A DNA stretch of 64,000 nt, taken from the NCBI GenBank assembly GCA_947561395.2, contig OX387189.1:23498329-23562328 (forward strand). The letters run 5' to 3'. The notes beneath the pieces were generated by a model. The model was not told the DNA's origin. It made no database searches and worked only from the letters and a program-made list of their open reading frames with translations. Shown one piece after another: positions 4,701-64,000 of the stretch. Both the position numbers and the translations under genes were made by a program. Position 1 is the stretch's first letter. Each line of letters opens with the position of its first letter. This DNA is from Buxus sempervirens. Taxonomy: Eukaryota; Streptophyta; Magnoliopsida; Buxales; Buxaceae.

Positions 4701-7700
4701 AAAGGAAAGAAGATGACACAGAGGAAACCCATACCAAAAAAAAAGGGGTCAAATTACCTGTAATCATCTTAACATTCACACCAAGGTTGAGAGCCCTACG
4801 GATGGTTTCTGCACTATCATGCCTAGGAGGATCAAATAAAGGTAGTAAACCAACAAACTGCCATGGTCCTCCTGGACTTTCTTTTGTTCTCTCAGGCACT
4901 TCCTGCAAACAGATAAAAAAAAGGATAATAGTGCCGCTACATCAATCAGAAACATAGAAACTACACTAAAGTATCAATCTTAACCTGTCTAGCAACAGCC
5001 AATGATCGCAACCCACGTTCAGCAAACTTATCAATCACAGCATGGACCTTCTTCCTTACATCCTCTTTGCAATTGCAAAGGTTTAGTATCTGTTTCGTAG
5101 ATGAATTTAAACAAGTGAGTATGGCCAGTTCAACATGTTATCTTCTAGCATTAATTTTCAGGACTATGAGGGATGCCAAAGTAACCTGCTCAGGAGCACC
5201 TTTGCTGGCTCGATGCCAGCTTCCATCAGAATCAATGTATGTGAGAGCAGTTCTTTTGTCTACCGGATTAAATGGGAGAAAATGGACTTCCCTAATACCA
5301 GCTCGTGCCTGAAGAAATAAACTAATATATAAGAACTTGCTCTTCGGTGAATTCTTCATACCCAAATTAATAAACCGTATGGACGAATGAATGCAGAGCA
5401 AAAAATTTATACCTCCTTTGGGTCTGCGAGCATCCCAACAATGGCAGCATCAATGGCATCTTGATTTTCAGTTCTCGAAGCCCTTGCGGCAAGCAGCATC
5501 ACATGGTCTTTATCAACTCCCTTTACAAAGACCTCAATTAGGTTTTTGTCAACACTTAGCTTGTTAAGCGTCAAGGTCCCTGTCTTATCACTGCAGAGAA
5601 CATCCATGCCTGCCATTTCCTCTATGGCAGTCATTCTTTTAGTAATTGCACCCTGTTGGGACAACCTGTGGGATCCAATAGCCATTGTCACAGACAAAAC
5701 AGTGGGCATGGCAATGGGTATGCCTCCGATCAAGAGAACCAACAGATTGTCAATCCCATCCCTGTATTTACGATGCTGAATTGGGTACATGACAATGATT
5801 TCTACCAGCATTCCCACAGCTATGGAGCAAATACAGAAATTCCCAATTGCAGTCAGAACCTTCTGGAAGTGTCCAACTTGGTTGGTACTATCCACCAAAT
5901 GTGCTGCCTTCCCAAAGAAGGTGTGAACACCAGTAGCAATGACGACGGCTTCAATCTCACCCTGTTTGCAAGTAGAACCAGAGAACACCTCATCTGACGG
6001 GTTCTTCGTGACAGGGAGGGACTCTCCGGTTAGAGCAGATTGATCAATCTTCAACGGGTCGCCCTCGAGAAGGCGAGCATCAGCAGGGACGATGTCTCCC
6101 AATTTAATGGTGATGATATCTCCGGGAACAAGAATGGCAGCATCCTGCTCACTCCAGCGTCCATCTCGAAGGACCTGCAAGTATGCCAAAAATAAAAAAA
6201 TAAGAAAAAAAAGCACGTATATGATACAAAAGAAAATCAAACAACATCATAACTTTCTTCTCTCTTAGCTGGTATTTTACCTTCGTCTTCGGAGCAAGAC
6301 CAGCCATAAGAGCTGCTGCAGCATTACCAGCATTGTTTTCTTCAATAAAACTGATGGTAGAGTTGATAACCAGCAAAGAAACAATACCCACAAAGTCCTG
6401 CCAATCTGGGGGCCGCCCATCACCGTTTGCCAATGCAATTGCCATCAGAGCTGCAGCTTCCATGACCCATGATAAGGGATTCCACATAAAACCCAGAAAC
6501 TTGAGGACTTTGCTTTCCTGTTGAAAACATTAAACCGTCACATACCGAACTCCCAAAGCTTAATAGAAGAAGATCTGAGCAACAAGTCACCCTTTAAACG
6601 AACCTTTTTCTCTTCTAGTTTGTTGGGTCCGAAGATCTGAAGCCGGTTGGCTCCTTCCTCGGATGTCAGACCTTCTTTCGTACATTTCAGCTGTTCGAAC
6701 ACTTCCTCTATTGGAATTCGTTCCTGAGAGAACAGAGAACAGAATACGACAGACGCGGTTAATCAACGCATAAGTATTTGGGTTTTGATAATAAAATCTA
6801 ATCCGTTGAAAAATTATGGGCTTTTGGGCCTAATTGGCTTATAAAAACAATGTACCCGGATTCAATTCACGAGCTTGCGTCGACATCTACTTCTATCGGC
6901 CTGAGCCTTGTCATACATTAACGATTCTAAGGTGAGCCAGAAAATGCTCAGCTCATATGATCTCAGCTTGTTTGCAATAATACATGAACACGCCTAGGGC
7001 TGGCAACGGGTCGAATACGGTACGGATCTGTCATGATCCGAATCCGAACCGAAAATAAAAATCCGATATCCGAATTCGATCCGAAATCCGACGGATCTTT
7101 TATATGTGAATCCAAATTCGAAACCGAATTTATATAATGTATCCGAATTCGAAATTCGACCGAATAAATAACCGAAATCCGAATTCGATCCGAATTAGAT
7201 CCGATTTGAACTTAAAACTCAAAAGTTAAGTTTAACTATTAAAGCAAATTTTAATTATCAAAACTAATGAGCCATATAAATATTAAAGCAAGATATGAAT
7301 AAGGATAGTTCAACCATGGTTTATACAAAGTTTACCAATGATTTAATGAAAAGTATATGTTGATTTCGGTTCGGATCTTTTTCGGATCGGATATGGACAG
7401 ATTCGGATTCGGATCCGAATTCGGTCGGATCCGAAATCCGATATCCGTATCCGAACCGCGGATCTATATTTTCGGATCGGATTCGGGATTTTCGGATCGG
7501 ATTCGGATATATATCCGACCCATTGCCAGCCCTAAACACGCCCCCATGCTTAAACTTCCGTCTTCTTAGCAGTGTCATTTACGTATATGTTTGCATTTTT
7601 TTGGCATTTTCAAACCATGAAAAGCACATGTGTTGGTCAGAATGAGAAAGGCTGAACTACCATGAAGATGCCAAAAAGCCCATTATCCAAAACGGCAAAT

Positions 7701-11734: not shown

Positions 11735-12070
11735 TGTAGAGGGGTGAATAGGCGTAGCACAACGGAATTAAAGATTTTCTACTAATTAAAGACAAGTCAT
11801 TAATTAATACATTAATAAGTCCTCAAAGTAATTCCAAAAAAAATTAAATAATCAATCAAAAGTAATTAACAAGCCACCCAAATTGCAAGTAAATAATTAA
11901 AGCAATAAAAGAGGACAAAAAAATTTTGGTGACGGAAGGGAAAACTCAAAGAAAACTCTCTATCAGAAAAACCCTCCAGGCTATACAGGAGCCACCTAAA
12001 AGATCCACTATGAGAAGAAGACTTTCAACCTATGATTCAGATGACTCAACATCCCCATACTAGACCTTGT
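11735..12070. repeat. Left part of an older interspersed repeat split by the Tat insertion
   Basis: Begins with TGTAGAGGGGTGAATAGG, a word I associate with the start of dispersed plant LTR-type repeats. It runs to the Tat retrotransposon and seems to resume at 28690-29346, where it ends in CCTAACA. TG...CA-like ends and a joined length near 1 kb suggest a solo LTR, but I found no clear target-site duplication. Confidence 0.35.
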
Positions 12071-12075
12071 GACTC
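12071..12075. repeat. Target-site duplication of the Tat element, left copy
   Basis: GACTC directly precedes the left LTR (TGTTGCTCC). The same five bases directly follow the right LTR at 28685-28689. Confidence 0.95.
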
Positions 12076-13164
12076 TGTTGCTCCAAAAATGGGCCGGTGT
12101 GGACACGTGTCTGTGGTGATGATGTGTCTCTACGCGGGCGTGCCAGTATCGTTTGATACAATGATTTTCGAGTCGATTCCTGACCCCGGGCACCTGTTCC
12201 GAATCTGAACCGGGATCGGTTCAGTCGTACTGCAAGTCACCTGTAATAAAGTCGGTCAGGCGATGGTATGAAGACTAGGGGTTCGGTCTTCGTTTCGGGT
12301 TCTTGTAAGTGTTTGAAAGCAAAAGCAACTAACGGCACACAAATCCCTTTATTATAAAATCGGCCAAATAGCCGAAAGCGACAACAGATAATCCTCAAAA
12401 TGGAAACAAAAAGTACAAAAGAAAACCGACAGGGCTCGCAGGACCGGCCTGTCCTGGTCTTATAGCCGTAATCGGGTATAAGCGCAGGAGGAAGGGGGCG
12501 GCTGCTTACAAAGTCGATTCAGGGGGTTCACCTTGGATTGCTGCTTACCCGAAAATACACAAGTCACCTGGCGTGAACAGAGCGAGTCTCGGGACCGGCT
12601 GCTCGGGATTCTGTAAAGACAGAACTGCGAGTCAGGGGCGGCCTCAACTTACTCTCCGGTGGCAGGATTCTGGTGTTAATCGGAGTAAAGAGGGGTCGAA
12701 GATGTCACTGCGACTGGAAGCAGTGAGAGAAGTCCTAGTTTATCCGTCTGTATTAGAGGGGATAAAGGATCACGGATGATCAAAATAATATAATAACCGG
12801 TTGCGGTTGTGTGGATTGTGTCCTCGAACTCTTCAAATTGAGGCCTTTTATAGCCGCTCCTTGACGGTTGCTCAACTTCCTACTCTCGCACGATCTTCAT
12901 GGCGGTTGTTTATCGTCAGTTCTCTGTTTCAAAGTGATAACCGCCCGGCCATGATCTAATAATTCTATTCTTGAACGGCCGATGGCACGATCTTCTGATA
13001 TTTATGGTTTTGTCTTACTTGCTTGCGTGGCTCGAACCGCATTCTTCTGTATGCGTGCTGACGTGGCCGGCTCAACCCTTCAAAGTCTACGGGCCGTGGC
13101 CTAACCAAGCCACCTAGGCGCCACGTGTCCTTTTCTTATTCGTCGGTTATATAGGGTGTAAACA
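12076..13164 (-). repeat. 3' LTR of the Tat element
   Basis: 1089 bp, reading TGTTGCTCC...GTGTAAACA on the plus strand, colinear without gaps with the right LTR. It carries the same TATA (about 12844-12852, minus) and AATAAA signal (12348-12353, minus). A 68-codon open frame present in both LTRs has a non-ATG start and no recognisable similarity, so it is not annotated as a gene. Confidence 0.97.
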
Positions 13165-13177
13165 TTGCCCCCCTACT
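13165..13177 (-). promoter_or_regulatory. Polypurine tract
   Basis: On the minus strand AGTAGGGGGGCAA directly precedes the 3' LTR (TGTTTACACC). This is the expected position and composition of the plus-strand priming site for reverse transcription. Confidence 0.85.
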
Positions 13178-13312
13178 TACTTGTGACGCCGTCATCGGCC
13201 GGTGTGATGAGTAAGTATTTTCGGGTTTTTCAAAATTTGTCCGTCGTTTGATGTGAAAAGATCGCGCCGTTTCCCTACAATCGTAATGATGAAACCTTTC
13301 GGATTTCGCCTT

Positions 13313-13320
13313 CTATAAAG
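13313..13320 (+). promoter_or_regulatory. TATA box of antisense PMD gene 1
   Basis: CTATAAAG lies 69 nt upstream of the ATG at 13389, followed by a pyrimidine-rich stretch typical of a plant leader. It lies outside the LTR, so the antisense gene seems to have its own promoter. A second TATA-like word TTATATAG sits at the LTR edge (13147-13154). Confidence 0.55.
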
Positions 13321-13388
13321 TACCACATCCGAGATTTTACTTTACTCTTTCTTTTTGGCTGTTTGTTTTTTCTTCCTCTTTGTCTTCA

Positions 13389-16300
13389 ATGGCGGGCACT
13401 CTCATACACTATCCTTCTACAGTCGAAATTTTCGGCAACTCGATATCTGTAGGCCCCTTCATTTGTGCCAGTAATGCTCCTTTGGAGGCCCCGACTGATA
13501 AAGTGAGGGGCCCTTTACTCTTTACTGACGAAGAGAATCTCCATCTACCTCTTCGCTTTCGAAATTGGCCGACTTCTTACCCTGAATGGAAAGCTTGGGT
13601 TGACCGCATGAAGGATCGTTTTGCCGTTGTTTGGCGTAAGACAGGTATTTATGACATGATTATTTTTTCGTGTCACTCTATTCCCTGCAATCGCGATCTT
13701 CTCTGCGCCATGAGTTCATTCTGGAATACCCACACCAACACCTTCAATTTCCCCTGCGAAATGATGACTCCTACTGTCATGGATGTCTGCTTCATTACTG
13801 GTTTCTTCGCGACTGGTCATGAGATCCGGGTCGGTATGGCGGACCTTAAGGATTACCAGCATTTACCTCCGATTGAAGTGGGTGACAAAGGGAAAGAAGT
13901 AGAAAAGAAAAGAAAGCAACCCTCAACGAAGAATAACAGGGCTTTCAAGAAGGCACGATCTTCTCGGCCAAAAGGTATTGTGCTGTCCGAGCATGAACCT
14001 CCACCGTCAGAGAGCGAATCTCCACCGACTTCAATTCATTCCTCTTATCGGTCCTACATCAAGGACTGTTCCAAATTCAGGCCTCCAGCTTATGCCGATG
14101 AGGTGGAACACTTCTACTTTCTCCTTTATTTTTTCTGCAACTTTGTATTCTGTTCCAAAGCTCAAGCAGTTACCAAAGAGTATTACTCATTGGTCAAGTT
14201 AATTCTGGGTGAGTATGAAGTTGCCCTTGCTCCTTACTTTTTGTCGGTTTTATACCGTTCACTTCAAGAGTTTGTTCATGGCTCCCTTCAAAATCCTGGG
14301 GGGCCATTGTGGTTCCTCCAATTTTGGGCTTATCACTATTTTCCATCCCAGTTTTATGCTCAAGTACCGATCACTCCTAACATGCCTTCTGATTTTGGTG
14401 GCCACGCCTGTTTGGCTGCCACACCAGCTGTTCTATCTTTTTCCGAATGTTTCCGTTTCTTTTTCAACCTTCATTATTTTCCTACTCCTCCTTTTGAAGT
14501 CTCCTCAAATTCTCCCGGTTTCCTTTCAATGGTGGATGACATAACTGACGAGCAGCATCTTATCTGGGCCAGTTTTCTGAAGGCTCGAAATTTAAATTAT
14601 GCTGTGAAGTCAATTAACAAGAAACCGGGGTATGAAGTATACTTGCCCAATTGTGTCGGCCGGCAATTTCAATGCGAACAGAGGATTCCCTTATTTGAAG
14701 TAGATGGTTTGTTCACAGTTAATGCCAAACCTGTTGATCGGCCGTCTGTCACTGTAGCCGAAGCTGCCGACATGGAAGATGCTTATAAAGCTGCTGCCGT
14801 TGAATTTCGACTTCCCTTTCTTCCTCGTCGTTACGACTGTCGCTGTGATTTCCGTGTTTGGTGGAAATCGTTGTGGAACAATATCTGCCGTTATTCGGCC
14901 GATTATTATCTGGAAAGGATGGGTCTGTTTGAGCCTCCGGCTTCACCTATCCAAGAAGGTATATTCTTATCTTTCTTGCTTCTGATCCGCTTGATGTTCA
15001 CTCAATTTTTCTGTCATTAGGTAAAGTTCCGCCTCTAGCTTTGGAAGCTAGTCCACTTGCACTTTTTCCTGAACCTGTCCAAGAAGATATTAGTTCAGGT
15101 ATACGGCCACCCGGTGAAACGCCGTTTCTTACCTTGGAGGCTCATGCTTCTCCTTCCGGGGAATTGGCCGAAGATGATGCGTTGTCACCAGAATGTCCTC
15201 TCTCGATTGTCCCGTATGAAGATGATGAGGATCCCGATGATGTCCCATTACGACGGCGTCCTCGGAAGGTACTGAATCTTTATTGCTCATCTTCTTAGTT
15301 TGATTTTTCTTTCTGACACCTCATTCTTCTAGGCTTCGAGTTCCTCGGGTCCAACTGCTTTTTCTTCCAATGTCATGGAATCTTCTTCGGATCTGGTTGT
15401 TGATCCCATGTCTGTTTTTGATTCGGCCAATTTCTCTGTTCCTACCGAAGCATTGGATTCTCCTGGTAGTGTCGCTGCAGCAGCCCCTTTAGCACTTCCT
15501 GAAGATCAGGAGCATTTATCCATTCGAGAGGTTTCTCCAGAAAGAAGTCCGTCTCCCGACTTACCTCCTGGATATGAGCAGAGTGCAGCCTTACCGGTAG
15601 TTGGGATTGCAACATCTACTATTTCTGTTGGGCCTTCCGGCCCTTCTGCCTTGGCCGATATTCCTTCTGATTCTCCTGTTACAGCAGCGGAAGCTAATAT
15701 TAATCGGTCAAAGCAAAAGCTTATCGACTTGGGGAGTTCCAGTTCATCGCTTATTCCTTCTTTTGCTGCGGGACCACTCCCTGGTGATGGCCGATTGGAC
15801 ACTATATTGAACGATGTCTGTTCTACTTTCTCATCTGACGGTTCATCTGAGCCCTTATCTCCAACGAGTATCCGATCGGAAACTATTCGCCTCCTCTCTC
15901 CAGGAATAATTGGTATTTCCGAAGAGACTCTTACCCGTGTGATGGCATTGGCTGCACAACTTCGGGATCTGTCTTCTGTATCTCCTGATGTCAAATCGGT
16001 GTTCTCTCAACTTACTCTCCTTTACCCTTATAAAGTTGTCTTTGACCATCTTTCGGCCAAATTACATGAAATGAGTAATACGGCCGATTCTGTTAATGGC
16101 CGATATCAACATTTGCAACAGTTGAGGAATGAGCGCGAGATTTGTCATCATCAGTTTACTGAAACGGTCCACCGTATAAACATCATTGATGATGATATTT
16201 CGGCGGTCGACCGTCAGATTGCTGAGTTTCAGTCTAGGAGGTCTGATCTTGTAAATCAACGGGAGGAACTTCTTCGTACGAATAACGCTATTGATGACAT

Positions 16301-16469
16301 CCTGAAAGAGAAGACCCGTCAGTGCCTCGAGATCTCCCACGAGCTGAAATCGGAGATAGAGTTGGCTCGAGGTTCCTCTCTGCTTCGGTCCACTTTGGTT
16401 GAAGAAAGACGGTCTGCCCAAGAGTCTTTTGACCGTATATATTCTGCCATTTTAAATACTTCTTTGTAA
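13389..16469 (+). CDS. Antisense plant mobile domain (PMD) protein 1, three exons, 984 aa
   Basis: Encoded on the strand opposite to gag-pol. Exons 13389-14958, 15021-15268, 15333-16469; both introns (62 and 64 nt) are GT-AG and keep frame, giving 984 aa. Residues about 40-500 match the plant mobile domain (aminotransferase-like, PF10536-type): WPTSYPEWKAW (about 60), FW...NTFNF...MTPTVMDVCFITG (about 111-138), GPLWFLQFWAYHYFP (about 305-319), YLPNCVGRQF (about 418) and FRVWWKSLW (about 488). A basic NLS-like segment (KKRK...FKKAR, about 173-190) interrupts the domain. An acidic, Ser/Pro-rich linker and a predicted coiled coil (about 845-980) follow. Host PMD proteins (MAIN/MAIL) act in the nucleus in transposon silencing; the role here is unknown. 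The frame's first ATG is 13389. The model lacks transcript support. Confidence 0.8.
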
Positions 16470-16809
16470 AGCATTTAATGAATTAAACTCTTTTTTGGAA
16501 TCCATTTTGCCAACTGTCCTAGCCGTCAGAATCGGCTCCTTTTTCGACACAGTCATCTTTTCAATTTGATTCATCCGTATGATTTTTACCTTTAAAAACG
16601 CTTTTTTCGAGAAGATATCGAGCCGCCGTTTCGATTTCTTCGGGAAGGCGATCGTACTATCAACATCTTTTTCGGGAAGACAGCAGTCTTATCAACGCCC
16701 TTCTCGATATTTTGAATCATTACGAGCTCTCCTTCCTGCAGACGTTTCCTTGTTTCGTTTCGTCTTCTTCTTCCTTCGAGCTTTTCTTCTCTGGTTCTTG
16801 GTATCGATC

Positions 16810-19564
16810 ATGGCGGATGACAACCCTAACGACTTGAATCTGTTCCTTGATGGTGAGGATGGTCCTGTTCTTGGTCCATGCACCGATGACGAGACGGAAA
16901 AGGCTCCAAAGGTCCTGCACTCTTCCTACCATTTGATCAGCGCTTCTGATCCTGTGAGATGGGGTAATCTGATCACTCTTCCTCGCTCCTGGCCTAAGTG
17001 TTCCCCTGAGTGGAACAAATGGGTTGAGCGTTTACGGTCTTATTATATGGAGACCTGGGTTAGGCTAGGCTTAGCGGAGATGATCTTCTATTCCACCTTC
17101 TACATTCCCTTCAATCCTATTTTGCTTGGGGTGGCCTCATTTTTCTGGTGTCGGGGTTCCAACACCTTTTCCTTTTACCATGGGCCTATGACCCCAACCC
17201 TGTTGGATGTTTGCTGCATCACAGGTCTTTCGGTCCTTGGGGAAGAAGTAGATTCTACCCTGTCCGTTTTCTCATCTTCTGTTTTTAACACCGCTCATGC
17301 TTCTTCTGCTTTCGGCACTTTTGTTCGTGCTGAGCGAGTTCCAAATGACGATAATCCTCCTTCCCTTCAAGAGCATTGCTCTTTCTTGCTGTTTTTTCTT
17401 TGCCATTTTTTCTGCTGTGGCCCATCTGCTCAAATGGTAAAGGAATTTGCCGGTATTGCGGTAGCCCTGGCCCATGGTCGCCGTTTGGCTCTAGCCCCTT
17501 TCTTTCTCAGCCAGGTCTACCGTGGGTTACACAGTCTGTCTTTCGGCCGATTAGGGGTTGCCAGTGGCCCTCTTTGGTTTTTACAATTCTGGTTTTATGA
17601 ATACTTTCCCAGCTTTTTCTGTACAGCCGTAGACAATCCTTTTCCTAATTATTACTATGCCGGCCGTCGCTGGCTTACCGCAACACCTATTCAATTGTCT
17701 TTCACGGCTGTTCTTGATTTCTTCCTGGTAGGTCTTCAGGAAAATAATCCTCCTTTATTCCATCACTTTTCTCTAGACCAATTTCATGGGTCTCCCCTTT
17801 ATGCCGCCATCAATTCTTCTCCAGAGGCTCGCCGACGTGCTACGGCCAGTTTTCTTATTGCCCGTGAGCTTCCTTTTGGCTTACATAACCGAGATGCTCC
17901 TGCCACTTCTAGAAGAGAAGGGGTGGAAATATATCTGCCGCATTTCGTCAGTCGGCAACTTGGTTATGGCCAAGGCATTCCTCTGGTGGTGTTTTCATCT
18001 ACCAATGGTGGCTCTCGGTCTGTTTTGAGCCCTAGTTACCTGTCATTAGCAACTTCTCGGTTCCGCGATCTTTCTGCTTGCTTCCGCAATTATCCTCTTC
18101 CCCGGGAATCCTCAGTTGAACCTTCCTTTCGTCGATGGTGGTCTCAGCTTTACTCTGACTTTGTCCGGCTTGATGCAGAGTCGTATACTGCGCTATTTCG
18201 ACCGAATGCGGTTGATATAGCGAGTATAGGCAAACTCCGCGGGTATTATGAGGCCCGTTACCCAGGTAACTTTCGTTTATGTTTTTGTAAATTGATCTTC
18301 TCTATTCGGTCGCGTCTGACTTTCTTTTTCTTTATTAGATGATCCTAGATCCTCCAATGTGAAGAGTAAGAAAAAGAAATCCAAGACGTCGGTCACCTTT
18401 AACTGGAGGCGACCTTCCAAGGTTTCTGCCAGTCGGAGCAACCCTTCCTCCAAACAGTCGCCTTTGAAAAAGCGGAAGATTGGTGAGGTATCGGACGGTC
18501 GTGCTTACGTTACTCGCTCCAGTTTGCGACTCCGAGTTCGGCGTCCAGGTGAGCGTGTCGTCGTGTCTGATGATTCTTCGGACGAGGAAGAAGATATTGA
18601 TTTATTTCGTCCTCAGCATGGTCCCCCAGTTAATTCTGGAAGTAGTGGTAGATCAACTCCCATGCCGACTCCTCCTCGTGCATTTCATTATGCTAGTCCT
18701 CCAACCTCAACTCGATTTGTCACTCCTTCGACCGATCTGTTGCCTAGTGCATCTAGGCCGGCTCCTTTCTTCCCTCGTCCCGTGGTTGATGAAGCTGGTC
18801 CATCCACTGTGCCTGGTGCTGCTTCCTCTGGTTCTTCTTCCGGTGAATTACCTTCTAAGCCAAAAATTCCTGTGGCCAAGGAAGAAAATTATAGACCCCT
18901 CCCTGGTACTTGCTTCGGATTTGTCAGGTTTTGCTTCATGGAAGTAGACCGTTGTCTTTCATCCCCAGAGTTTCATGACCTTCGTCCGGCATTTCTTTTG
19001 GATTTTGACAGTTGGAACGAACTCCACTCCTTTGTTCTTCGTCGGCCCGAAGAACTTTCTGACGAAGAATTGTCAGAAGTTCGATTGTTGATATGCAGAG
19101 CCGTAGTGATGAATTCTCGCGGGGATCGTTTAACCGGAGATCGGCTGATGTCCATGCTTGGTTTTTATAGTGCCGTGCCGCAGCTAAGGGAAGCCATGGA
19201 CTTTCTCCGTTCTGTCAACGTGAGATGTTCCGATTTCCGTCAAGAAATCCGTGCTGTATATGGTCATAATCGCCAGTTGGAAACTTTGAGGTGGTCCCTT
19301 CATAAAAATTCTCTTGGCCAGGGCTCTATTGCTGGTGACCCATCAGATACTGCTCCAGACGAATTATCTCGGCTACAATCTGAGGAACATCATCTTAAAG
19401 AATCTATCCAGATTCAGATGCTGCTGATCGAATCGAGCCGGCACCGTTTGGAGGAGCACATGAGGGATGAAAGGGAGGTGGAGGTTCGTCGAGCTGAGAT
19501 GCAGTTATTATTGGAGCGGGCGAAGTATGATCATGCCCGATTTAAGACTTGGTTCGAAAGGTAA
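16810..19564 (+). CDS. Antisense plant mobile domain (PMD) protein 2, two exons, 893 aa
   Basis: Second gene on the strand opposite to gag-pol, tandem with the first. Exons 16810-18265 and 18339-19564 with a 73-nt GT-AG intron in phase 1. The start at 16810 has strong context (A at -3, G at +4) and follows a pyrimidine-rich leader; an in-frame ATG at 16579 would add 77 residues. PMD signatures repeat those of protein 1 in order: WPKCSPEWNKW (about 61), FFW...NTFSF...MTPTLLDVCCITG (about 111-139), GPLWFLQFWFYEYFP (about 252), YLPHFVSRQL (about 375), FRRWWSQLY (about 440). Exon 2 opens with a Lys-rich NLS-like run (KSKKKKSK), then a Ser/Pro-rich linker and a coiled coil (about 773-893). The proteins are clearly but distantly related. 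Function unknown. Confidence 0.8.
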
Positions 19565-20038
19565 GGCTATAAAACCTTTTCTAAACAATCATACCGTTTG
19601 TTCGGTATTCACTTTTTTATGATAATGCCATATGGCTGGCATTTTTAAACTTTATTCAGCCGATTCCTCGACTTTTATTAGACGGTAGTTTTTTGCATGC
19701 TTTTTGGATGCATAACATACTCGTTTTATTTCATATCTACTGCTCGTTATAGAAAGATTAGAACTAAACAAACAAAATAAGAATGTTTTTATTTCAACAT
19801 TGATCTTTCATACAACCAAAGCCGAGCTCTTCTGGCTCTTTCATACAATCAAGGCCAGATGTATCAGCCGGGGTATGATAATACAACCGGGGCCAATATG
19901 CCCCTGAAATTGCTCCGCACTCCAACCATAGACGGTGTTAGCGAGGGGCAATTCCTTCAAAGGGGCAGGAGGAAAGAGGAGGGGATGGCAACTATTCCGA
20001 CCGGCGTAAATGCTGGTCGGAGGAGAGAACTCTCGTCT
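19565..20038. other. Element spacer between PMD gene 2 and the small minus ORF
   Basis: The first 200 bases are AT-rich, as expected for the 3' end of PMD gene 2, with AATAAG at about 19777. The rest is GC-richer. A plus-strand open frame at 19859-20215 starts with ATG but shows no family resemblance and overlaps the better-supported minus-strand ORF, so it is not called. Confidence 0.4.
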
Positions 20039-20191
20039 CTACCCAGAACTCGGTGGGAGAAGACCCACCGTGATGGGGTCAGCGAGAGTAGAGTCGCCTT
20101 TTCCGATCCCGCCCATTCTTATGAAGTCATCGGCTTTGTTGACTTCTTCTTCTCCGATCGTCTCCGTCGTCGGCTTTTGATCTTTCGCCAT
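20039..20191 (-). CDS. Small hypothetical ORF downstream of pol with its own TATA
   Basis: ATG at 20191, 50 codons, starting MAKDQKPTTETIGEEEV; acidic and charged, no family recognised. A clean TATAAATA stands at 20246-20239 on the same strand, about 50 nt before the ATG, and a purine-rich leader separates them. The frame closes at GGGTAGAG, which could also act as a splice donor, so this may be the first exon of a longer product. It lies 200 nt past the pol stop. It could be a subgenomic gene of the element or a chance frame. Confidence 0.35.
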   Translation of the reverse strand: MAKDQKPTTETIGEEEVNKADDFIRMGGIGKGDSTLADPITVGLLPPSSG

Positions 20192-20238
20192 CTCTTCTCT
20201 TCTTTCCTTTCTTGAAAGAATGGCGAGCATTGCCTTAG

Positions 20239-20246
20239 TATTTATA
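20239..20246 (-). promoter_or_regulatory. TATA box between pol and the antisense genes
   Basis: TATAAATA on the minus strand, located downstream of pol in the element's sense direction. It is too far from either LTR to be the LTR promoter and would drive only the short region 20191-20039 and beyond. Confidence 0.4.
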
Positions 20247-20393
20247 GACCGATCGTCAGGAAGAAGATCAATGGGTCTGAGCGGATCTCGGAGAGATTTC
20301 CTATTTTAGTCTAATCCGCACAGTATGTCGGCTCCTCGATTTGACAATGCCATTTATTTGGCGTTGCAGGTACCGAACAGTAGATATTTTATT

Positions 20394-23300
20394 TTATTCC
20401 TGATTTTCCTCAGGTTGGTTATTGATTTCGCGGCTTTCCCATAGAGTGGGAAAGTACCGTTTCAAAAACTGGCCGTTGATAATCTTCTTTTCTTGGCCAT
20501 CCAAAGACTGTATATGATATGCCCCCCCGGGCAATACCTTGCTAACTTGTAATGGTCCTTCCCACGTGGGGGACCATTTTCCATACAAAGAATCCTTTTT
20601 CCCTATTGGCAGCAGGGTTTTCCACACTAAATCTCCTTGAGCGAATGATTTGTGTTTCACTCGGCGATTATAGGATCTTGCAATCCTTTGCTTGAGGGCT
20701 CTCTGCCGATCCAGGGCTAGCCTCCTCATCTCTCCCAAGTCTTCTAATTCAACTAACATTGCTTCCGTGTAATCCTTAGGAGTGAAATTATTCTGAATAG
20801 CCACCCTTAACGATTTGATCGTGATTTCGGCCGGAATAACTGCCTCATGACCGAAGGTTAAGGCAAAAGGGGTAGTTCCAATAGACGTCTTGTAAGACAT
20901 TCGATACGCCCACAATGCTTCAGATAAGAGTTTATGCCAACTTCTTGGCTTATCCTCAATCATCTTTCTTAGGATATTTTTCAACACCTTATTTGTGGCT
21001 TCAGCTTGCCCATTTGCCTGTGCGTAATAGGGTGTAGATTGAATCATTCTGATGCCATATGTTTTGGCAAATTCCGTCACTTCTTGTCCTACAAAAACAG
21101 TACCTGAATCGGTCGTGATGGTTTCAGGGATACCGTATCTATGAATTATCTGTTCCCTGATAAACTCAATCACATCCGTTTGCTCCACTTTTTTCAAAGG
21201 TTTGGCTTCCACCCATTTGGTGAAGTAATCAGTGGCTACTATGATGAAGTTGTGTAGACCGGTCGAAGGAGGATACACTTTTCCAATCAAATCCATTGCC
21301 CACCCTCTGAAGGGCCATGGCTTGACTATGGTTTGCAATTCAAATGCCGGCACCCTCTGAACTGGTCCATGTTTCTGACATTCTTGACATCCTGCAGCGA
21401 ACATCTGACAATCTTTCAAGATTGACGGCCAGTAATAACCATGCCGACGTAATAACCATCGCATCTTGACTCCTGCTTGGTGTGCGCCACAAATCCCTTC
21501 GTGTACCTCGGCCATTATTAACATGGCCTCTGTTGGGTTGACACATCTAAGTGGGATGTCTTCAATACTCTTTTTATATAGCTCATCGCCCAGAATAAAA
21601 TAGTTGGCAGCTTTCCTTTTGGTCGATCTGCTAGTCTTTATAGTAGGATCTTTAAGATATCCCCAGATCTCACCTCTCCAATCCTGTCTTATTGTCTGGT
21701 TACAACATGCTAATGAATCCACCAGAAATGGTCTTTTCTCGGAGTTGGGGAGAGATTGTATGGTCACCGTTCTAACTGAATCGCGCAGTCTGAGTCCAGA
21801 TGCCAACTGGGCCAGTTCATTAGCTTGATAGTTTTCCTTCCTTGGCCGATGTTCGAACTCAATTCTATTGAACTGCTGGGCCAGGAATCTCGCCCTTCGT
21901 AGCAATAGTACTAATGACTCGCTATTGCAGTTATATATGCCCTCCATTTGCTTCAAGACGAGTTGGGAATCTCCAACAATATTAACTGCTCGAGCACCCA
22001 TTTCCCATAGAATTTCCAAACCTATAATTGTAGCTTCAAACTCTGCCTGATTGTTTGTAGATAATTCTTCAAGCTGAAATGCATGTTCGTGCTTGTCACC
22101 AGTAGGTGAAGTTATTACTACTCCGATCCCAGAAGCAAACTCTGTTTTTGAGCCATCAAATTCCAGTGTCCATGGTTGGAATTCGGCATAACAAAAACTG
22201 GCATGAAATACTGGGATATCCAATTCTTTTTCCTGCACACTAGATGGATGATCGGCCAAAAAATCGGCCAATGCTTGTCCCTTTACCGCTTTCTGCGGTA
22301 CATATTTAAAGTCGAACTCCATCAGAGTCAGGGTCCATTTTCCGAGTCTACCACTCACTGTAGGCCGAGTGAGCATGTACTTGACCACGTCAGTGGCTGC
22401 TATGACGAAAATTTCTTTGGCCGACAAGAGATAATGTCGTAATTTGGTAGCTGCATAATAGAGTGTTAGACACAACTTCTCTAGATTAGTGTACCTTTCT
22501 TCCACCGGAGTCAGGAATCTACTGAGGTAATAAATGGCCTGCTCATATCCTTGATCATTCTCTTGGGCCAACAAGACTCCAACTGAATCGCTCGAAGCCG
22601 CTATATAAAGTTTTAGCGGCCGTTCTTTTGAAGGTGGCACCAAAACCGGTGGAGTTACCAAATATTGTTTGATACCTTCAAAAGCGGCCTGATGGTCTTC
22701 ATTCCAGATAAACTCTTCAGTATTCTTGATTTTCAATAATGGGGATAGGACCCTGATCTTCCCGGCCAGGTTTGAAATGAATCTTCTCAAGAAATTCACC
22801 TGGCCGAGCAACCTTTGTAGCTGTTTCTTATTGGCTGGCGGTTTGGCCTCTATGACCGATTTTGCCTTATTTTTATCGACCTCGATTCCTCTCTGGTGTA
22901 CGAGAAAGCCTAGGAAATTTCCGGCCGATACACCAAAAGCACACTTCAATGGATTCATTTTCAAACTGTACTTACGAAGTCGTTCAAAAACCTTCTTTAA
23001 ATGCTGCAAGTGGTCCATTTCGGTCTGAGACTTTATCACAACATCGTCAATATATACCTCAAGTATTTGACCGATCATGTCATGGAAGATAAGATTCATT
23101 GCCCTTTGATAGGTTGCGCCAGCATTCTTTAATCCGAACGGCATAACCACCCAACAATAAGTTCCTAATGCTCCAGGGCATCGAAACGCCGTTTTTGCTA
23201 CATCTTCCTCGGCAATGAAGATTTGGTTATATCCGGAGTGGCCGTCCATAAATGACAAAAACTTATGCCGTGATGCATTATCAACTAAGAGGTCTGCGAT

Positions 23301-23969
23301 CGGCATTGGATATTCGTCCTTGGGCGTTGCAGAATTCAGATTGCGGAAATCAATACATACCCTAATTTGACCATTCTTTTTAATTACGGGTACAACGTTT
23401 GAAAGCCACTCGGCATATCGTATTGGCCTAATAAACCCGGCTGATAAAAGCCGTTCTATTTCAACCTTTACTTTACATATCACGTCGTCACCCATCCTCC
23501 TTGAAGGTTGTCTGAATGGTTTAAATTCTGGCTTGATAGGGAGCCTGTGTTCTACCATTTTTCGGTCCAATCCTGGCATCTCTTGATAAGTCCAGGCGAA
23601 ACAGTCCGAATATTCGGTTAGCAATCGTCTCATTTCTTGTCTGACCGAAGGTGGTAATAGCTTACTTATGAAAACAGGCTTCTGTTCCGTCTCTGTCCCC
23701 AGGTTGATTTCTTCTAATGGATCTTGGGTATCTACCTTCAAGTCTTCTAATTTGGCTGGTGCTGCTTGTAGGTCGGCGAGAGTAATCTCATTCCGGTCTT
23801 GTACCCTTTCATCTTCTTGTTCATTAATGAATTCGGCCGAGTTTATCATTATCTCGCCGTTTTCCAGCCATTTCTGTTCCTGCTGCAACTTCCCTATCTT
23901 TTCTTCCTGCATGTAAGCCGTCATCTTTCTTACGACGGCTTCTGCGACTTCTGATGGTTTAACCATCAT
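20394..23969 (-). CDS. pol: Tat retrotransposon Pol: reverse transcriptase, two RNase H domains, integrase (1191 aa)
   Basis: Makes the DNA copy of the element and inserts it. Domains in order: RT with VCIDFRNLN (about 205-213) and the catalytic YIDDVV (about 304-309); the ordinary RNase H (about 455-570); a second, archaeal-type RNase H from about 605 (LEFDGSK..., NNQAEFEA, GDSQLVLKQ); integrase zinc finger with His-His-Cys-Cys (about 817-865); integrase core with Asp in MDLIG (about 892), Asp in TTDSG (about 953) and Glu in GQAEATNK (about 990), with 35 residues between the last two. A GPY/F-like C-terminus follows, without a chromodomain. The dual RNase H defines the Tat lineage. No stop or frameshift is seen. 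Its ATG overlaps the gag stop. Confidence 0.97.
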   Translation of the reverse strand: MMVKPSEVAEAVVRKMTAYMQEEKIGKLQQEQKWLENGEIMINSAEFINEQEDERVQDRNEITLADLQAAPAKLEDLKVDTQDPLEEINLGTETEQKPVFISKLLPPSVRQEMRRLLTEYSDCFAWTYQEMPGLDRKMVEHRLPIKPEFKPFRQPSRRMGDDVICKVKVEIERLLSAGFIRPIRYAEWLSNVVPVIKKNGQIRVCIDFRNLNSATPKDEYPMPIADLLVDNASRHKFLSFMDGHSGYNQIFIAEEDVAKTAFRCPGALGTYCWVVMPFGLKNAGATYQRAMNLIFHDMIGQILEVYIDDVVIKSQTEMDHLQHLKKVFERLRKYSLKMNPLKCAFGVSAGNFLGFLVHQRGIEVDKNKAKSVIEAKPPANKKQLQRLLGQVNFLRRFISNLAGKIRVLSPLLKIKNTEEFIWNEDHQAAFEGIKQYLVTPPVLVPPSKERPLKLYIAASSDSVGVLLAQENDQGYEQAIYYLSRFLTPVEERYTNLEKLCLTLYYAATKLRHYLLSAKEIFVIAATDVVKYMLTRPTVSGRLGKWTLTLMEFDFKYVPQKAVKGQALADFLADHPSSVQEKELDIPVFHASFCYAEFQPWTLEFDGSKTEFASGIGVVITSPTGDKHEHAFQLEELSTNNQAEFEATIIGLEILWEMGARAVNIVGDSQLVLKQMEGIYNCNSESLVLLLRRARFLAQQFNRIEFEHRPRKENYQANELAQLASGLRLRDSVRTVTIQSLPNSEKRPFLVDSLACCNQTIRQDWRGEIWGYLKDPTIKTSRSTKRKAANYFILGDELYKKSIEDIPLRCVNPTEAMLIMAEVHEGICGAHQAGVKMRWLLRRHGYYWPSILKDCQMFAAGCQECQKHGPVQRVPAFELQTIVKPWPFRGWAMDLIGKVYPPSTGLHNFIIVATDYFTKWVEAKPLKKVEQTDVIEFIREQIIHRYGIPETITTDSGTVFVGQEVTEFAKTYGIRMIQSTPYYAQANGQAEATNKVLKNILRKMIEDKPRSWHKLLSEALWAYRMSYKTSIGTTPFALTFGHEAVIPAEITIKSLRVAIQNNFTPKDYTEAMLVELEDLGEMRRLALDRQRALKQRIARSYNRRVKHKSFAQGDLVWKTLLPIGKKDSLYGKWSPTWEGPLQVSKVLPGGAYHIQSLDGQEKKIINGQFLKRYFPTLWESREINNQPEENQE

Positions 23970-26900
23970 TTGGTAGTTCTTTGAGTTCGGCGACTGCGGC
24001 TACTTCTGTAATCTGTAGTTGCGCCGTTTGTAGAATAGCCGAACTTGAAGTGATCGGCTGCCCATTCTTGTCATATCCACTAAATGAAATTGGTTTTACC
24101 CCTTCGTTATAAAGGGATGCATGTGCGGCATTGGAATCCACGGCAAATGGCCGCTGGTCGGCTTTTACTTCTTCGGTCTTGCCATCCTTCCAAAACAGCA
24201 ACGATTGGTGCAAAGAAGATGGTACACATTTGTTTGAATGGATCCAATCTCTTCCCAGCAATGCGTTGTATCCGGCGGATGATTCAATTACGAAGAATGC
24301 CGTAAGAGACTGCCGTGTCCCAACCGTTAGTTCGATTGGGAGGATTCCTCTAGTTCCTGTAATACCTCCTGCAAAGTTAGTGACGGTGATTTCGGAAGAA
24401 ATTAAATCCGAATAAGACTTACCTAATTTCTTCAATGTGGATATTGGGATGAAATTTATTGCTGCCCCATTATCAATTAGAATTCTATTAATAGGGATCC
24501 CGTTCATGTGCGCCTTTATAAATAAAGGTTTGAGATGTTGAGTCATAGTTAAGGATGGTTCAACGAAACATACCTCTCCTACCAGACCAATTTTGTCACC
24601 ATCGGCCGGTTTCTGGTCTTTTTTCTCTTCTTCGAGATGTTCTGGATCAATCACATATAAAGCTACTGGGTCTTCCTCCTCCTGGATCTCCTCTAAACGT
24701 GGTAACTCCATGCTGGCCCCAAAAGTCATAGGTAAAGTGAGGACCATATGACAGTCAAGTGGTATCGGGGGCATCCGACCGAAACAGATTTCGGCGATTG
24801 ATGCATCCGCACTCAATGGAGGTTGACTCAGCGACTCACTGATCTCGTCTTTGGGAGTTTCGAGCGTCAATTCCTCTGTTATTTCTACCGTAGAAGGAGT
24901 TGAGATCCTACTGTACTCTGTTAACATTTGTTCAACTAACAATTGTTCTCCCTCTCCTCCGGCGAAATTATCCGTCAATTCTTCGTCCGAAACCAACCTT
25001 TCGGTCACTGCATTGGAATCATGCTCGGGCGTGGTCTCTGGAGGGATTGGTGAATCAAGCGGGCTCTTCTTGAGCCTTTGTGGCTTCGGAATGCGTCTTT
25101 TGGCCACAAACCTAGACGACCAATATGGCTCGGATGATCCAGTACTCTGTTCCTGGTATCGTCTCTTAGCTTGCTGTCGCTGCCAGCGTCGCTTCTGCGT
25201 TCTGGTCAGTTCTGCGATACTTGCCTGCGCATGAAAAGGAAATTTAGGATGAGTCAATCTTTTCCAGTGACCATCCTGGATAATAGGTGGTTTTACCATC
25301 CTGGGTTTGACCCCGTTTACCATCCTGTATTGCTCGTAAGTCATGTAGCCGCTATCCCTAGCGGAGCTGTAGGTGGCTGCCGTTCTTGTCGGCGAGCCTA
25401 CTTGTCTACCAGACGTTAAGTACAAGGGTTTCTTGCCCCCCTGAGTGTGGCGTGCATCTTCATACTTGACTGATTTCCCTTTGTATTGGGAATACCGGTA
25501 TTCTGCTATCACTTTTTGCTTGCAGTTTTGGCAAAGGAGGCCTGGTGACATCTCTATTTTCTCCGGAATCTTGCATGATGTATCTTTATTGACGGAAGAC
25601 TCCTCTGAGGATTTAGCAACCGTTTCCAGTCGTTTTTTGGTTGCAGCTTGATTGGAAGATAATTCAGAAGGAACCAAAACCAATTTCTTTGTTGTTTTTT
25701 CATTGAGCTCTGGTTTCCTGTCTTCTTCCATTCTGGGTTCGCGTCTGGGCTTATGCCACCATTCACCCCAGATTTCACCTTTCCTCTCTTGATGCCATGA
25801 CCGTCCTTGTGTAGGTGGATACCTCCAATGGTTCCTTGGTCGTAAATTCACCTGGTTCTGCACTGGTTGTGCTGTTTTCCCCCATTTCCCTGAGGAAGAT
25901 CCATCCAGGTCGATCTTAACTGCTGGAGTGCGTTTTGGCAACCCAATGGTAACCATATTTGCCGACACCTCTTTAGGGAATGGTTGTATGTCAACCTGCA
26001 TCTTCTCTTTGTCGGTTTCTGCAAACTTCAGGAGCCCTTTATCAATATTCTCCTGTATCACATTACGAAGCACAGTACATTCATTAGTTTCATGAGTTTT
26101 CACCCCGTGCCATTTACAAGCTTTACCCTTGGCCGCCATATTGGCGGGGATAAAAGGATGGTCTTTGGTTAATCTGAAGAATCCCTGTTTCAAGAGGTAT
26201 TCAAATACTTCAGCCGTCTTATTTATGTCAAAGGAATAATTTCGGCTAAAAGTATTCGTCTCCTTTGTTGCCTCTGTATCCTTGGTTTTCCGGATAAGAA
26301 TCGGGCAGGTGATTGATTGTTTTCCCACGACTTCTACAACTCCGTATTCAAAGTTCGGGTCCTTGTAATAAGACCCGTAAGATGAGACTTTCTTTTCGTT
26401 GTCTTCCTGTAATAGCCACTCGTATTTGGTGGCTCTGGCCGACAACTCAAATAAGTCTTCGAACTGTTCACCTTCAAATTTCTTTCGGAGTTCAAAGTGT
26501 AGTCCATTTAACGCCAAATTTGCAAATTCCGATTCTGGTAAAAGAATCCGGCATTTGTTTTTCATATATTTAAAGCGAGCAATATATTTATCGGCCGATT
26601 CCCCCGGTTGTTGTCTTAACCGGGCAAGATCAACCATGGTTACTTCAGGCTCCGTACGATAAAATTGGGAGTGGAATTTCTCTTCCATCATTCCCCAATT
26701 TGTAACTGAATTGGCCGGTAAGGTAATATACCATGTAAAGGCCTGCCCGGTCAATGAGTTTCCAAATAGTCTAAGTCTAAGGAAATCATTACCGGACGCC
26801 TCTCCACATTGAACCGTAAATCGGCCAATGTGTTCAATAGTAGATTGTTGACCTTCTCCTGAAAACAAAGTGAATTCGGGAATTTTGTATCCCCTAGGGA

Positions 26901-27546
26901 ATTCAAATTGTTGGTCAATCCAGCCTGGGTAAGGTTTCCTATAAACTGGCCTAGTCATTCGTCGGTGATATTGATCTCCGATCATTTCTTGAATTACATT
27001 TTGAATGTAATTACGGTTTACGGCCATATTTCTTACCCCCATATCTTCTCTATGGTTCTCCTGTGCCTCCCTTTGTCCCATGGGTCGCACCTCGATCGGA
27101 GGCACATTGGGATGACCTGGGACACCAGGAGGTATTTCTCCCCTTAAAGCGGCGGTGTTGGCCTGTTCGTGTCGGCCGTTTACACCTAGATTCATGATCG
27201 GTGGCTGCTCCGGGATATTTATCCTTTCGTGAGCATTTGACCCAGCAGCCGATGTTTCGGCTCGTTCGGTCATCACGACCGGTCTTGCCATTGTAGAGAA
27301 ACCTTCCTGTAAAACCGCTAGGATTCTACCATTATCAGAAGAAATTTTGTTAATACCCTGGCCAAAGCCTGCCATTTGTTGGCTGAGACCTTGTATGGCC
27401 TGAATAAGTCGCTCATTAAGGTCCGGCTGAGAACTCGAAGGTCCTTCTTCCGGGACCTCTGAAGCATAAAGAGGATTTACCTGAGATTCGGCAGGTTCCT
27501 CTGGCGCTGCATTTTCAGCATGCCGAGTACTTCTTCTTGCCGCCAT
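23959..27546 (-). CDS. gag: Tat retrotransposon Gag and aspartic protease (1195 aa)
   Basis: Structural protein of the particle, joined to the protease that processes it. The retrotransposon gag domain is around residues 215-370 (FTLFSGEGQQS, AFTWYITLP, FHSQFY, FKYMKNKC). A zinc-knuckle-like C-x2-H-x4-H-x4-C motif is at about 477-490, with His in place of the usual second Cys. The protease is near the C-terminus, with LIDNGAA at about residue 1023 and LLGRDW further on; Tat proteases often have DNG for DTG. The frame is open upstream into the LTR to 27681, but the ATG at 27546 is the first beyond the LTR and primer site and is chosen as start. Gag ends at TAA 23961-23959 inside the start of pol. 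Confidence 0.93.
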   Translation of the reverse strand: MAARRSTRHAENAAPEEPAESQVNPLYASEVPEEGPSSSQPDLNERLIQAIQGLSQQMAGFGQGINKISSDNGRILAVLQEGFSTMARPVVMTERAETSAAGSNAHERINIPEQPPIMNLGVNGRHEQANTAALRGEIPPGVPGHPNVPPIEVRPMGQREAQENHREDMGVRNMAVNRNYIQNVIQEMIGDQYHRRMTRPVYRKPYPGWIDQQFEFPRGYKIPEFTLFSGEGQQSTIEHIGRFTVQCGEASGNDFLRLRLFGNSLTGQAFTWYITLPANSVTNWGMMEEKFHSQFYRTEPEVTMVDLARLRQQPGESADKYIARFKYMKNKCRILLPESEFANLALNGLHFELRKKFEGEQFEDLFELSARATKYEWLLQEDNEKKVSSYGSYYKDPNFEYGVVEVVGKQSITCPILIRKTKDTEATKETNTFSRNYSFDINKTAEVFEYLLKQGFFRLTKDHPFIPANMAAKGKACKWHGVKTHETNECTVLRNVIQENIDKGLLKFAETDKEKMQVDIQPFPKEVSANMVTIGLPKRTPAVKIDLDGSSSGKWGKTAQPVQNQVNLRPRNHWRYPPTQGRSWHQERKGEIWGEWWHKPRREPRMEEDRKPELNEKTTKKLVLVPSELSSNQAATKKRLETVAKSSEESSVNKDTSCKIPEKIEMSPGLLCQNCKQKVIAEYRYSQYKGKSVKYEDARHTQGGKKPLYLTSGRQVGSPTRTAATYSSARDSGYMTYEQYRMVNGVKPRMVKPPIIQDGHWKRLTHPKFPFHAQASIAELTRTQKRRWQRQQAKRRYQEQSTGSSEPYWSSRFVAKRRIPKPQRLKKSPLDSPIPPETTPEHDSNAVTERLVSDEELTDNFAGGEGEQLLVEQMLTEYSRISTPSTVEITEELTLETPKDEISESLSQPPLSADASIAEICFGRMPPIPLDCHMVLTLPMTFGASMELPRLEEIQEEEDPVALYVIDPEHLEEEKKDQKPADGDKIGLVGEVCFVEPSLTMTQHLKPLFIKAHMNGIPINRILIDNGAAINFIPISTLKKLGKSYSDLISSEITVTNFAGGITGTRGILPIELTVGTRQSLTAFFVIESSAGYNALLGRDWIHSNKCVPSSLHQSLLFWKDGKTEEVKADQRPFAVDSNAAHASLYNEGVKPISFSGYDKNGQPITSSSAILQTAQLQITEVAAVAELKELPNDG

Positions 27547-27569
27547 TAGTGCTCTCTCAAAGACTAATG

Positions 27570-27587
27570 GTCCCACCGGGCGTGCCA
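27570..27587 (-). promoter_or_regulatory. Primer-binding site candidate
   Basis: On the minus strand, 8 nt after the end of the 5' LTR, the sequence TGGCACGCCCGGTGGGAC begins with TGG, the complement of the tRNA 3' CCA. Position and start fit a minus-strand primer site. I could not assign the tRNA with confidence. Confidence 0.6.
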
Positions 27588-27867
27588 AAAAGGGATGTTG
27601 CTCCAAAAATGGGCCGGTGTGGACACGTGTCTGTGGTGATGATGTGTCTCTACGCGGGCGTGCCAGTATCGTTTGATACAATGATTTTCGAGTCGATTCC
27701 TGACCCCGGGCACCTGTTCCGAATCTGAACCGGGATCGGTTCAGTCGTACTGCAAGTCACCTGTAATAAAGTCGGTCAGGCGATGGTATGAAGACTAGGG
27801 GTTCGGTCTTCGTTTCGGGTTCTTGTAAGTGTTTGAAAGCAAAAGCAACTAACGGCACACAAATCCC

Positions 27868-27873
27868 TTTATT
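27868..27873 (-). terminator. LTR polyadenylation signal
   Basis: AATAAA on the minus strand in the 5' LTR, with the equivalent copy at 12348-12353 in the 3' LTR, where it would end the genomic RNA. Confidence 0.5.
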
Positions 27874-28363
27874 ATAAAATCGGCCAAATAGCCGAAAGCG
27901 ACAACAGATAATCCTCAAAATGGAAACAAAAAGTACAAAAGAAAACCGACAGGGCTCGCAGGACCGGCCTGTCCTGGTCTTATAGCCGTAATCGGGTATA
28001 AGCGCAGGAGGAAGGGGGCGGCTGCTTACAAAGTCGATTCAGGGGGTTCACCTTGGATTGCTGCTTACCCGAAAATACACAAGTCACCTGGCGTGAACAG
28101 AGCGAGTCTCGGGACCGGCTGCTCGGGATTCTGTAAAGACAGAACTGCGAGTCAGGGGCGGCCTCAACTTACTCTCCGGTGGCAGGATTCTGGTGTTAAT
28201 CGGAGTAAAGAGGGGTCGAAGATGTCACTGCGACTGGAAGCAGTGAGAGAAGTCCTAGTTTATCCGTCTGTATTAGAGGGGATAAAGGATCACGGATGAT
28301 CAAAATAATATAATAACCGGTTGCGGTTGTGTGGATTGTGTCCTCGAACTCTTCGAATTGAGG

Positions 28364-28372
28364 CCTTTTATA
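28364..28372 (-). promoter_or_regulatory. TATA box of the 5' LTR promoter
   Basis: TATAAAAGG on the minus strand inside the LTR. It predicts initiation of the genomic RNA near 28340. The same box in the 3' LTR would fire out of the element toward the H+-ATPase side. Confidence 0.65.
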
Positions 28373-28684: not shown

Positions 28685-28689
28685 GACTC
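28685..28689. repeat. Target-site duplication of the Tat element, right copy
   Basis: GACTC directly after the right LTR, identical to 12071-12075. Confidence 0.95.

Positions 28690-46512: not shown

Positions 46513-64000
<17,488 letters not shown>

Follow-up and report, generated by a model that had tools for sequence, protein, structure and literature searches.

Why would a plant retrotransposon carry, opposite to its gag-pol genes, two tandem genes for proteins of a kind that plants themselves use against transposons, and what might such proteins do for it? The question is raised by a locus of Buxus sempervirens, within a stretch of 64,000 nucleotides (contig OX387189.1, positions 23,498,329 to 23,562,328; hereafter the window, in whose coordinates all positions are given). 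Here a long terminal repeat (LTR) retrotransposon of Tat type bears two intron-containing genes, PMD1 and PMD2, whose products each contain a plant mobile domain (PMD). The PMD has been termed a domain of unknown function (e.g., PMC7156037), although two host proteins that contain it, MAIN and MAIL1, act in the silencing of transposons. Our results indicate that PMD1 and PMD2 are very likely a conserved, protein-coding pair maintained by selection, and we propose, tentatively, that they counteract silencing by binding the DNA of the element.

Two spliced PMD genes antisense to gag-pol

A first-pass annotation, made from the sequence alone, had read two plus-strand PMD genes opposite to gag-pol, each assembled by in-frame GT-AG introns. 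Both genes lie between pol and the 3' LTR, antisense to gag-pol, and have the following structure:

13389-16469, plus strand: PMD1 (ATG 13389, stop 16467-16469), exons 13389-14958, 15021-15268 and 15333-16469, 984 amino acids
14959-15020, plus strand: PMD1 intron 1, 62 nt, phase 1, at the C-terminal border of the PMD
15269-15332, plus strand: PMD1 intron 2, 64 nt, GT-AG, in frame
16810-19564, plus strand: PMD2 (ATG 16810, stop 19562-19564), exons 16810-18265 and 18339-19564, 893 amino acids
18266-18338, plus strand: PMD2 intron, 73 nt, phase 1, its relative place matching PMD1 intron 1
13165-13388, plus strand: region upstream of PMD1, with TATAAAG at 13314; putative promoter
16470-16809, plus strand: PMD1-PMD2 intergenic region; probable PMD1 3' end and putative PMD2 promoter

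Profile PF10536 confirmed the identity of both proteins, with matches that cover most of the model and reach about three times the curated cut-off of 34.9 bits (PMD1, E 5.4e-29, 101.9 bits; PMD2, E 3.1e-30, 106 bits). The domain spans residues 86-443 of PMD1 and 87-444 of PMD2. Basic stretches occur near residue 173 of PMD1 and near residues 496 and 529 of PMD2, and the tail of PMD1 (834-973) has a coiled-coil-like hydrophobic periodicity of 3.5 residues. The longest stop-free stretch between 13165 and 20393 measures 590 codons on the plus strand and 166 on the minus strand. The former exceeds chance expectation, since the maximum in 300 order-2 Markov sequences read on both strands was 336 codons.

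We aligned to the window nine further copies of the pair, picked for their divergence and an open PMD2 exon 1, with pieces about 77-96% identical. Across these and the window, the GT of the introns was kept in 30 of 30 cases and the AG in 29 of 30, the missing acceptor having been deleted in one copy (L044). Splicing as annotated is thus predicted from reading frame, conservation of GT and AG, and the common position and phase of the first intron; other in-frame choices comprise one acceptor in PMD1 and two donors in PMD2. The TATAAAG located 75 nt before the PMD1 ATG was kept in 8 of 8 copies aligned over it, while the motif TATAAAD had no match in 16470-16809, upstream of PMD2. The strand corresponding to the genomic RNA is A-rich across the PMD genes as well, a property that we dropped as proof of long residence because plant genes can be T-rich at third positions (host exon: T 0.38, A 0.25).

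The tandem pair belongs to the element family

We searched the source assembly (676.5 Mb) for relatives of the pair; only the best candidates were scored, and match counts are lower bounds. PF10536 had at least 117 scored matches, PMD1 exon 1 at least 82 (65 stop-free) and PMD2 exon 1 at least 88 (63 stop-free). For 64 of the 82 scored PMD1 matches, PMD2 followed downstream in the same orientation, at a distance of 2.5-8 kb. In 61 of these 64 pairs the spacing was 3,328-3,429 bases (3,421 in the window), and both first exons were stop-free in 44. Unpaired counts are overstated, since four PMD2 matches scored as unpaired (L037, L038, L039 and L046) do have a PMD1 on reading. The reverse transcriptase (RT) of the family lay on the other strand, at a distance of 3-15 kb, for 72 of the 88 scored PMD2 matches, at about 6.1 kb in 65 of them, and on the same strand for none of the 88; conversely, a scored PMD2 was found beside 72 of 150 scored RT matches. 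The tandem antisense pair is a property of the element family.

Antisense orientation extends beyond this family. At six loci of more distant PMD lineages in the same genome the PMD lies opposite integrase or RNase H frames in every case, although integrase scores under the cut-off in L031 and L036; in L031, RVT_3 and H2C2 matches exceed it. No second PMD was found by tblastn in the 8-kb stretches around these six loci, among the matches listed.

Two further observations concern PMD loci of this genome. Positions 1023-4224 of L028 constitute a PMD1/PMD2 recombinant, 96.5% identical to the start of PMD1 and then 94.6% to PMD2, forming one fused PMD gene. L001 to L005, which have the top PF10536 scores of the genome among the matches listed, each hold a 236-residue frame; L001 and L002, the two for which frames were listed, have an additional 155-residue frame, with a PMD match in that of L002. 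These loci may be intron-containing PMD genes of the host type.

Purifying selection on both proteins

Every one of the nine copies is interrupted in PMD1 or PMD2 by one or more stops or frame breaks, as expected of dead insertions; the window copy has none. Ratios of nonsynonymous to synonymous substitution rates (dN/dS) relative to the window were low. They ranged from 0.11 to 0.14 in PMD2 exon 1 and from 0.22 to 0.34 in PMD1 exon 1, and in the tails from 0.35 to 0.44 (PMD1) and from 0.18 to 0.38 (PMD2), except for the misaligned L040 (0.62). Among pairs of sequences with dS above 0.2, median dN/dS was 0.167 for PMD2 exon 1 (35 of 45 pairs), 0.224 for PMD1 exon 1 (23 of 45), 0.294 for the PMD2 tail (36 of 45) and 0.415 for the PMD1 tail (23 of 45). 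In none of 20 tests did the bootstrap 95% upper limit reach 0.66, and for the first exons it stayed under 0.47. These values, far below 1, were obtained within the family, the two families described below being too far apart for a measurement between them. None of the outcomes that the first-pass annotation had named as refuting its reading was seen.

In the first exons the constraint follows mainly the coding frame. In a control with five of the nine copies (L040 was dropped because its PMD2 tail misaligns), the PMD frame of the first exons had values of 0.11-0.34 versus 0.61-3.15 in four of the five other frames; the fifth, the minus-strand mirror, showed a weaker echo (0.13-0.43). PMD1 exon 3 showed only a weak contrast of this kind (0.41-0.46 versus 0.44-1.45, five copies). 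Differences in exon length were divisible by three in 46 of 55 cases outside the PMD2 of L040, a few of the 55 being only cut ends of fetched stretches, and in 5 of 19 within it. Sliding windows revealed a constraint shaped by the domain. Values descended to 0.03-0.1 in the PMD core; in PMD1 they rose to 0.43-0.69 towards the C-terminal end of the exon (421-500) and to 0.37-1.34 in the linker (about 621-760) and returned to 0.2-0.4 in the tail from 761, and in PMD2 a single window (801-840) reached 0.85. As a yardstick, RT and RNase H gave 0.06 and 0.07 in two of six fetched copies, leaving out L051 (571 bases aligned, dN/dS 0.66) and L048, L049 and L052, which had no match. Relative to this pol ratio, PMD2 exon 1 stands at about twice and PMD1 exon 1 at three to four times. 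dS was mostly above the divergence of intergenic and intron sequence, with exceptions such as intron 1b of L037 and intron 2 of L042.

dS to the window also differs between PMD1 and PMD2 of one and the same copy (L037-L046; in L042, 0.15 versus 0.40), which suggests that family copies are mosaics.

An old tandem duplication

PMD1 and PMD2 share 29% identity across the PMD, and a Rosa protein (P0001) is about as close to each (30% to PMD1, 32% to PMD2) as they are to each other. A second family in the assembly (L027 and L045, adjacent stretches of one contig, both with interrupted frames) shows PMD1 and PMD2 in the same tandem arrangement, with identities of 41-54% for PMD1, 55% for PMD2 and 36-44% for the tails. 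In a tree of 16 rows, PMD1-type and PMD2-type sequences formed separate clades, each with support of 100/99. Each clade spans both families, which implies that the duplication preceded the family split. In this tree the pair sided with Rosa P0001, and other transposon-borne PMDs of the same genome sided with P0003 and P0004; long branches were flagged and the placement of P0001 was not settled. The tree left out L028, L022, L009, L025, L013 and P0002. A first tree of 18 rows that included the recombinant L028 grouped PMD1 and PMD2 to the exclusion of Rosa (99/99, long branches again flagged), but without L028 the three were not separated.

Gene structure concurs. At the C-terminal border of the PMD, where PMD1 and PMD2 have their phase-1 intron, L027 shows a donor-like site, likewise phase 1, with an intron of 68 nt; this shared place and phase suggest descent from a single ancestor that already had the intron. 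No similarity could be detected between the tails (exon 3 of PMD1, exon 2 of PMD2) or between the tails and P0001, and the shared duplication therefore reaches, as far as seen, only the PMD and its intron. It is very likely, judging from these comparisons, that the tandem duplication of an intron-bearing PMD gene is old, in agreement with the first-pass view that the element retained an ancient duplication and did not capture the genes by chance.

Relatives elsewhere were few. In a protein collection in which plant transposon proteins seem sparse, PMD1 had no homologue at E<=0.001 and PMD2 had four, and a profile search returned three, none of them new. Scans of viral contigs and of a genome-contig collection yielded no relative.

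A recently inserted Tat element

The pair resides in an element whose parts, beyond the PMD genes, are these:

12071-12075: left target-site duplication GACTC, flanking the 3' LTR
12076-13164, minus strand: 3' LTR, 99.9% identical over 1,089 bases to 27596-28684
20394-23999, minus strand: pol, with RT, RNase H, second RNase H (RVT_3) and integrase (open reading frame listing and Pfam)
23959-27756, minus strand: gag-protease open reading frame (open reading frame listing and Pfam)
27596-28684, minus strand: 5' LTR, partner of 12076-13164
28685-28689: right target-site duplication GACTC, flanking the 5' LTR

The boundaries proved as perfect as first described: one mismatch in 1,089 LTR positions (12835/28355) and GACTC at both ends. 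With a plant substitution rate of 1.3e-8 per site per year, this mismatch places the insertion at a few tens of thousands of years ago. Gag-protease and pol are both open from stop to stop, in different frames that overlap by 41 nt (23959-23999). Pfam domains in pol follow the order RT, RNase H, RVT_3, integrase. Neumann et al. 2019 (PMC6317226) give this order for Ogre and Retand, Tat clades of angiosperms. Given the LTR pair, the 5-bp duplication and this order, the element is an LTR retrotransposon of Tat type, inserted recently and lying on the minus strand of the window, and its original label as Tat was right by domain order. The element shares with Ogre an extra open reading frame with PF10536, but its gag-protease and pol frames overlap where Ogre has a spacer (274 bp on average, PMC6317226). 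In the place of the antisense Transposase_28 frame of Retand it has PMD1 and PMD2, neither of which matched PF04195 at E<=1.

Several side observations concern the element. A possible third accessory gene, an open reading frame of 50 amino acids on the minus strand (ATG 20191, stop 20039), lies between pol and PMD2 and is preceded by a TATA CTATAAAT at 20246 (window 20246-20039, gag-pol strand). Too short for a selection test, it was kept with its TATA in six of seven well-aligned copies (10 fetched; L055, L058 and L061 dropped). By eye, the first RNase H of pol (minus strand, 20397-23999) is without the usual acidic residues, while RVT_3, the second one, seems intact; Tat elements have been reported to carry a degenerate first RNase H (PMC6317226). 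The empty target site, TTGTGACTCACAA, was seen by eye at 12066-12080 / 28680-28694 and has 6-base arms centred on the 5-bp duplication. Palindromes are reportedly often targeted by LTR retrotransposons, to go by the title of one paper (PMC6911290).

Elsewhere in the window, a dispersed repeat of about 440 bases occurs in both orientations at 36662-37120, 50862-51315 and 56996-57409, with fragments near 40000-40765; its three longest copies are 78-81% identical. A stop-to-stop frame of 279 amino acids at 5407-6246 (minus strand) resembles, by eye, an exon of a plasma-membrane H+-ATPase.

A predicted VANC-like fold and a candidate binding motif

The predicted fold of the PMD of PMD1 and PMD2 resembles that of VANC21 (PDB 9lnj). 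According to a meeting report of 2021, a structure of VANC21 existed that had not been published; in the open-licence literature we found no report of a VANC-PMD link or of the structure, and any paper behind 9lnj may discuss the fold. VANC21 belongs to a DNA transposon, VANDAL21, whereas the genes studied here belong to a retrotransposon. DNA binding and demethylation have been shown for VANC proteins (Hosaka et al. 2017, PMC5735166; PMC10398659) and would be, for the PMD, a proposal drawn from the model. The short motif TCGGCC is enriched in the element, with 36 dispersed copies, 33 of them in coding DNA. Motif leads for other families, obtained with a Markov model, vanished under synonymous shuffles and were rejected.

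Several differences from VANC stand beside this match. Identity between the PMD and VANC21 is 6%, and a sequence profile of 30 PMD rows had no VANC match among PDB chains up to E 10. A first structure model was poor (predicted local distance difference test, pLDDT, 45), and nothing in a viral structure library matched at E<=0.001. VANC motifs often lie in non-coding tandem repeats, but TCGGCC is dispersed and largely coding, and no tandem array was found in 12000-29000.

Discussion

The PMD reading frames known from Ogre/Tat elements lie antisense. The association of PMD and gypsy elements is credited, in PMC6317226 and elsewhere, to Steinbauerova et al. 2011. Neumann et al. 2019 (PMC6317226) report PF10536 for 57% of Ogre elements, PMDs are present in gypsy elements of many plants (PMC9289625), and clades PMD-A1/A2 are gypsy-only (Ikeda et al. 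2017, PMC5418596). Our element resembles the Ogre/Tat cases in its Tat type, its domain order (RT-RH-aRH-INT, aRH being the second RNase H) and the place of the PMD protein between pol and the 3' LTR, and differs in having a tandem pair of PMD genes, both interrupted by introns and both subject to purifying selection. Among the papers listed from the open-licence literature we found none that describes a retrotransposon with PMD genes in tandem or with a spliced pair, although Steinbauerova et al. 2011 may show two such frames. Antisense Transposase_28 frames of Retand (Vicient 2025, PMC11963269) are alike in place and orientation, with PF04195 there and PF10536 here. GENE23 of Grande (PMC7264820) is likewise an antisense accessory gene with its own promoter, but a single one, reported without clear protein similarity. 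MAIN and MAIL1-3 (PMC7156037, PMC5418596) share PF10536 but are host genes, of which MAIN and MAIL1 promote silencing.

We propose that the antisense orientation of the genes to the genomic RNA would let their introns pass retrotransposition unspliced. PMD1 and PMD2 would be nuclear proteins whose PMD, with its VANC fold, binds DNA, the candidate site being the many copies of the family-specific short motif TCGGCC. Binding would keep host silencing off the element or reopen it, as VANC21 does for VANDAL21. The fold match makes an anti-silencing role, raised in the first-pass annotation and earlier in print, more plausible and suggests a route, binding of the element's own DNA, other than only mimicking MAIN or MAIL1. 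We favour such a VANC-like role, while putting its chances somewhat short of even. A broader conjecture, which we hold to be rather unlikely, is that PMD and VANC are branches of one DNA-binding superfamily invented by or traded among plant transposons, with antisense PMD pairs of Tat elements as VANC-like anti-silencing factors aimed at an element-seeded motif (here TCGGCC) and MAIN and MAIL1 as domesticated members.

The main rival holds that PMD1 and PMD2 are accessory replication proteins, serving nuclear import of the pre-integration complex, integration targeting, or handling of RNA or chromatin, with no role in silencing, like GENE23 of Grande. Strong, domain-shaped purifying selection with no clear positive selection fits such a house function, as do the basic stretches in both proteins and the nuclear product reported for an antisense additional open reading frame of Grande (PMC7264820). 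However, the sole structural relative found is an anti-silencing protein, and a domain present in only 57% of Ogre elements (PMC6317226) is not required by every Tat element; we regard this explanation as possible but doubtful. Improbable, in our judgment, is that the proteins mimic or compete with MAIN and MAIL1 in the PP7L complex and thereby weaken silencing. The PMD is common to both sides, MAIN, MAIL1 and PP7L interact (PMC7156037), and transposon-borne PMDs have been proposed to counter silencing (PMC8616336, PMC5418596). The pair nonetheless stands apart (100/100) from the Kingdonia/Castanea PMD proteins P0003 and P0004, in a 16-row tree that was built without MAIN and MAIL1.

Two other explanations fare worse. 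Antisense transcripts can regulate retrotransposons (PMC7264820) and PMD loci of tea give rise to phased small interfering RNAs (phasiRNAs; PMC10673657), so that an antisense RNA acting in double-stranded RNA control, with incidental reading frames, might be what matters. As a sole explanation this is refuted by the frame-specific constraint in the first exons, together with length changes mostly in multiples of three, even if the contrast in PMD1 exon 3 is weak, and we give it very little credence. PMD genes outside transposons are known (PMC5418596), and a recent chance capture of unselected host genes could be imagined. It is refuted by the recurrence of the pair in dozens of copies, the second family at 41-55% identity, the antisense PMD at all six other loci and the low dN/dS, which leave it next to no probability.

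Returning to the VANC-like anti-silencing role, the selection data indicate that PMD proteins of retrotransposons do something for the element, and the fold match offers a testable proposal, that the PMD may bind DNA in a sequence-specific manner. To our knowledge, no biochemical proposal of this kind has been made for the PMD. The pair shows how intron-bearing genes can survive inside a retrotransposon by virtue of their antisense position. If the proposal is true, one fold would act on both sides of the arms race between plants and their transposons, and retrotransposons would possess an anti-silencing system of the kind described for VANDAL DNA transposons.

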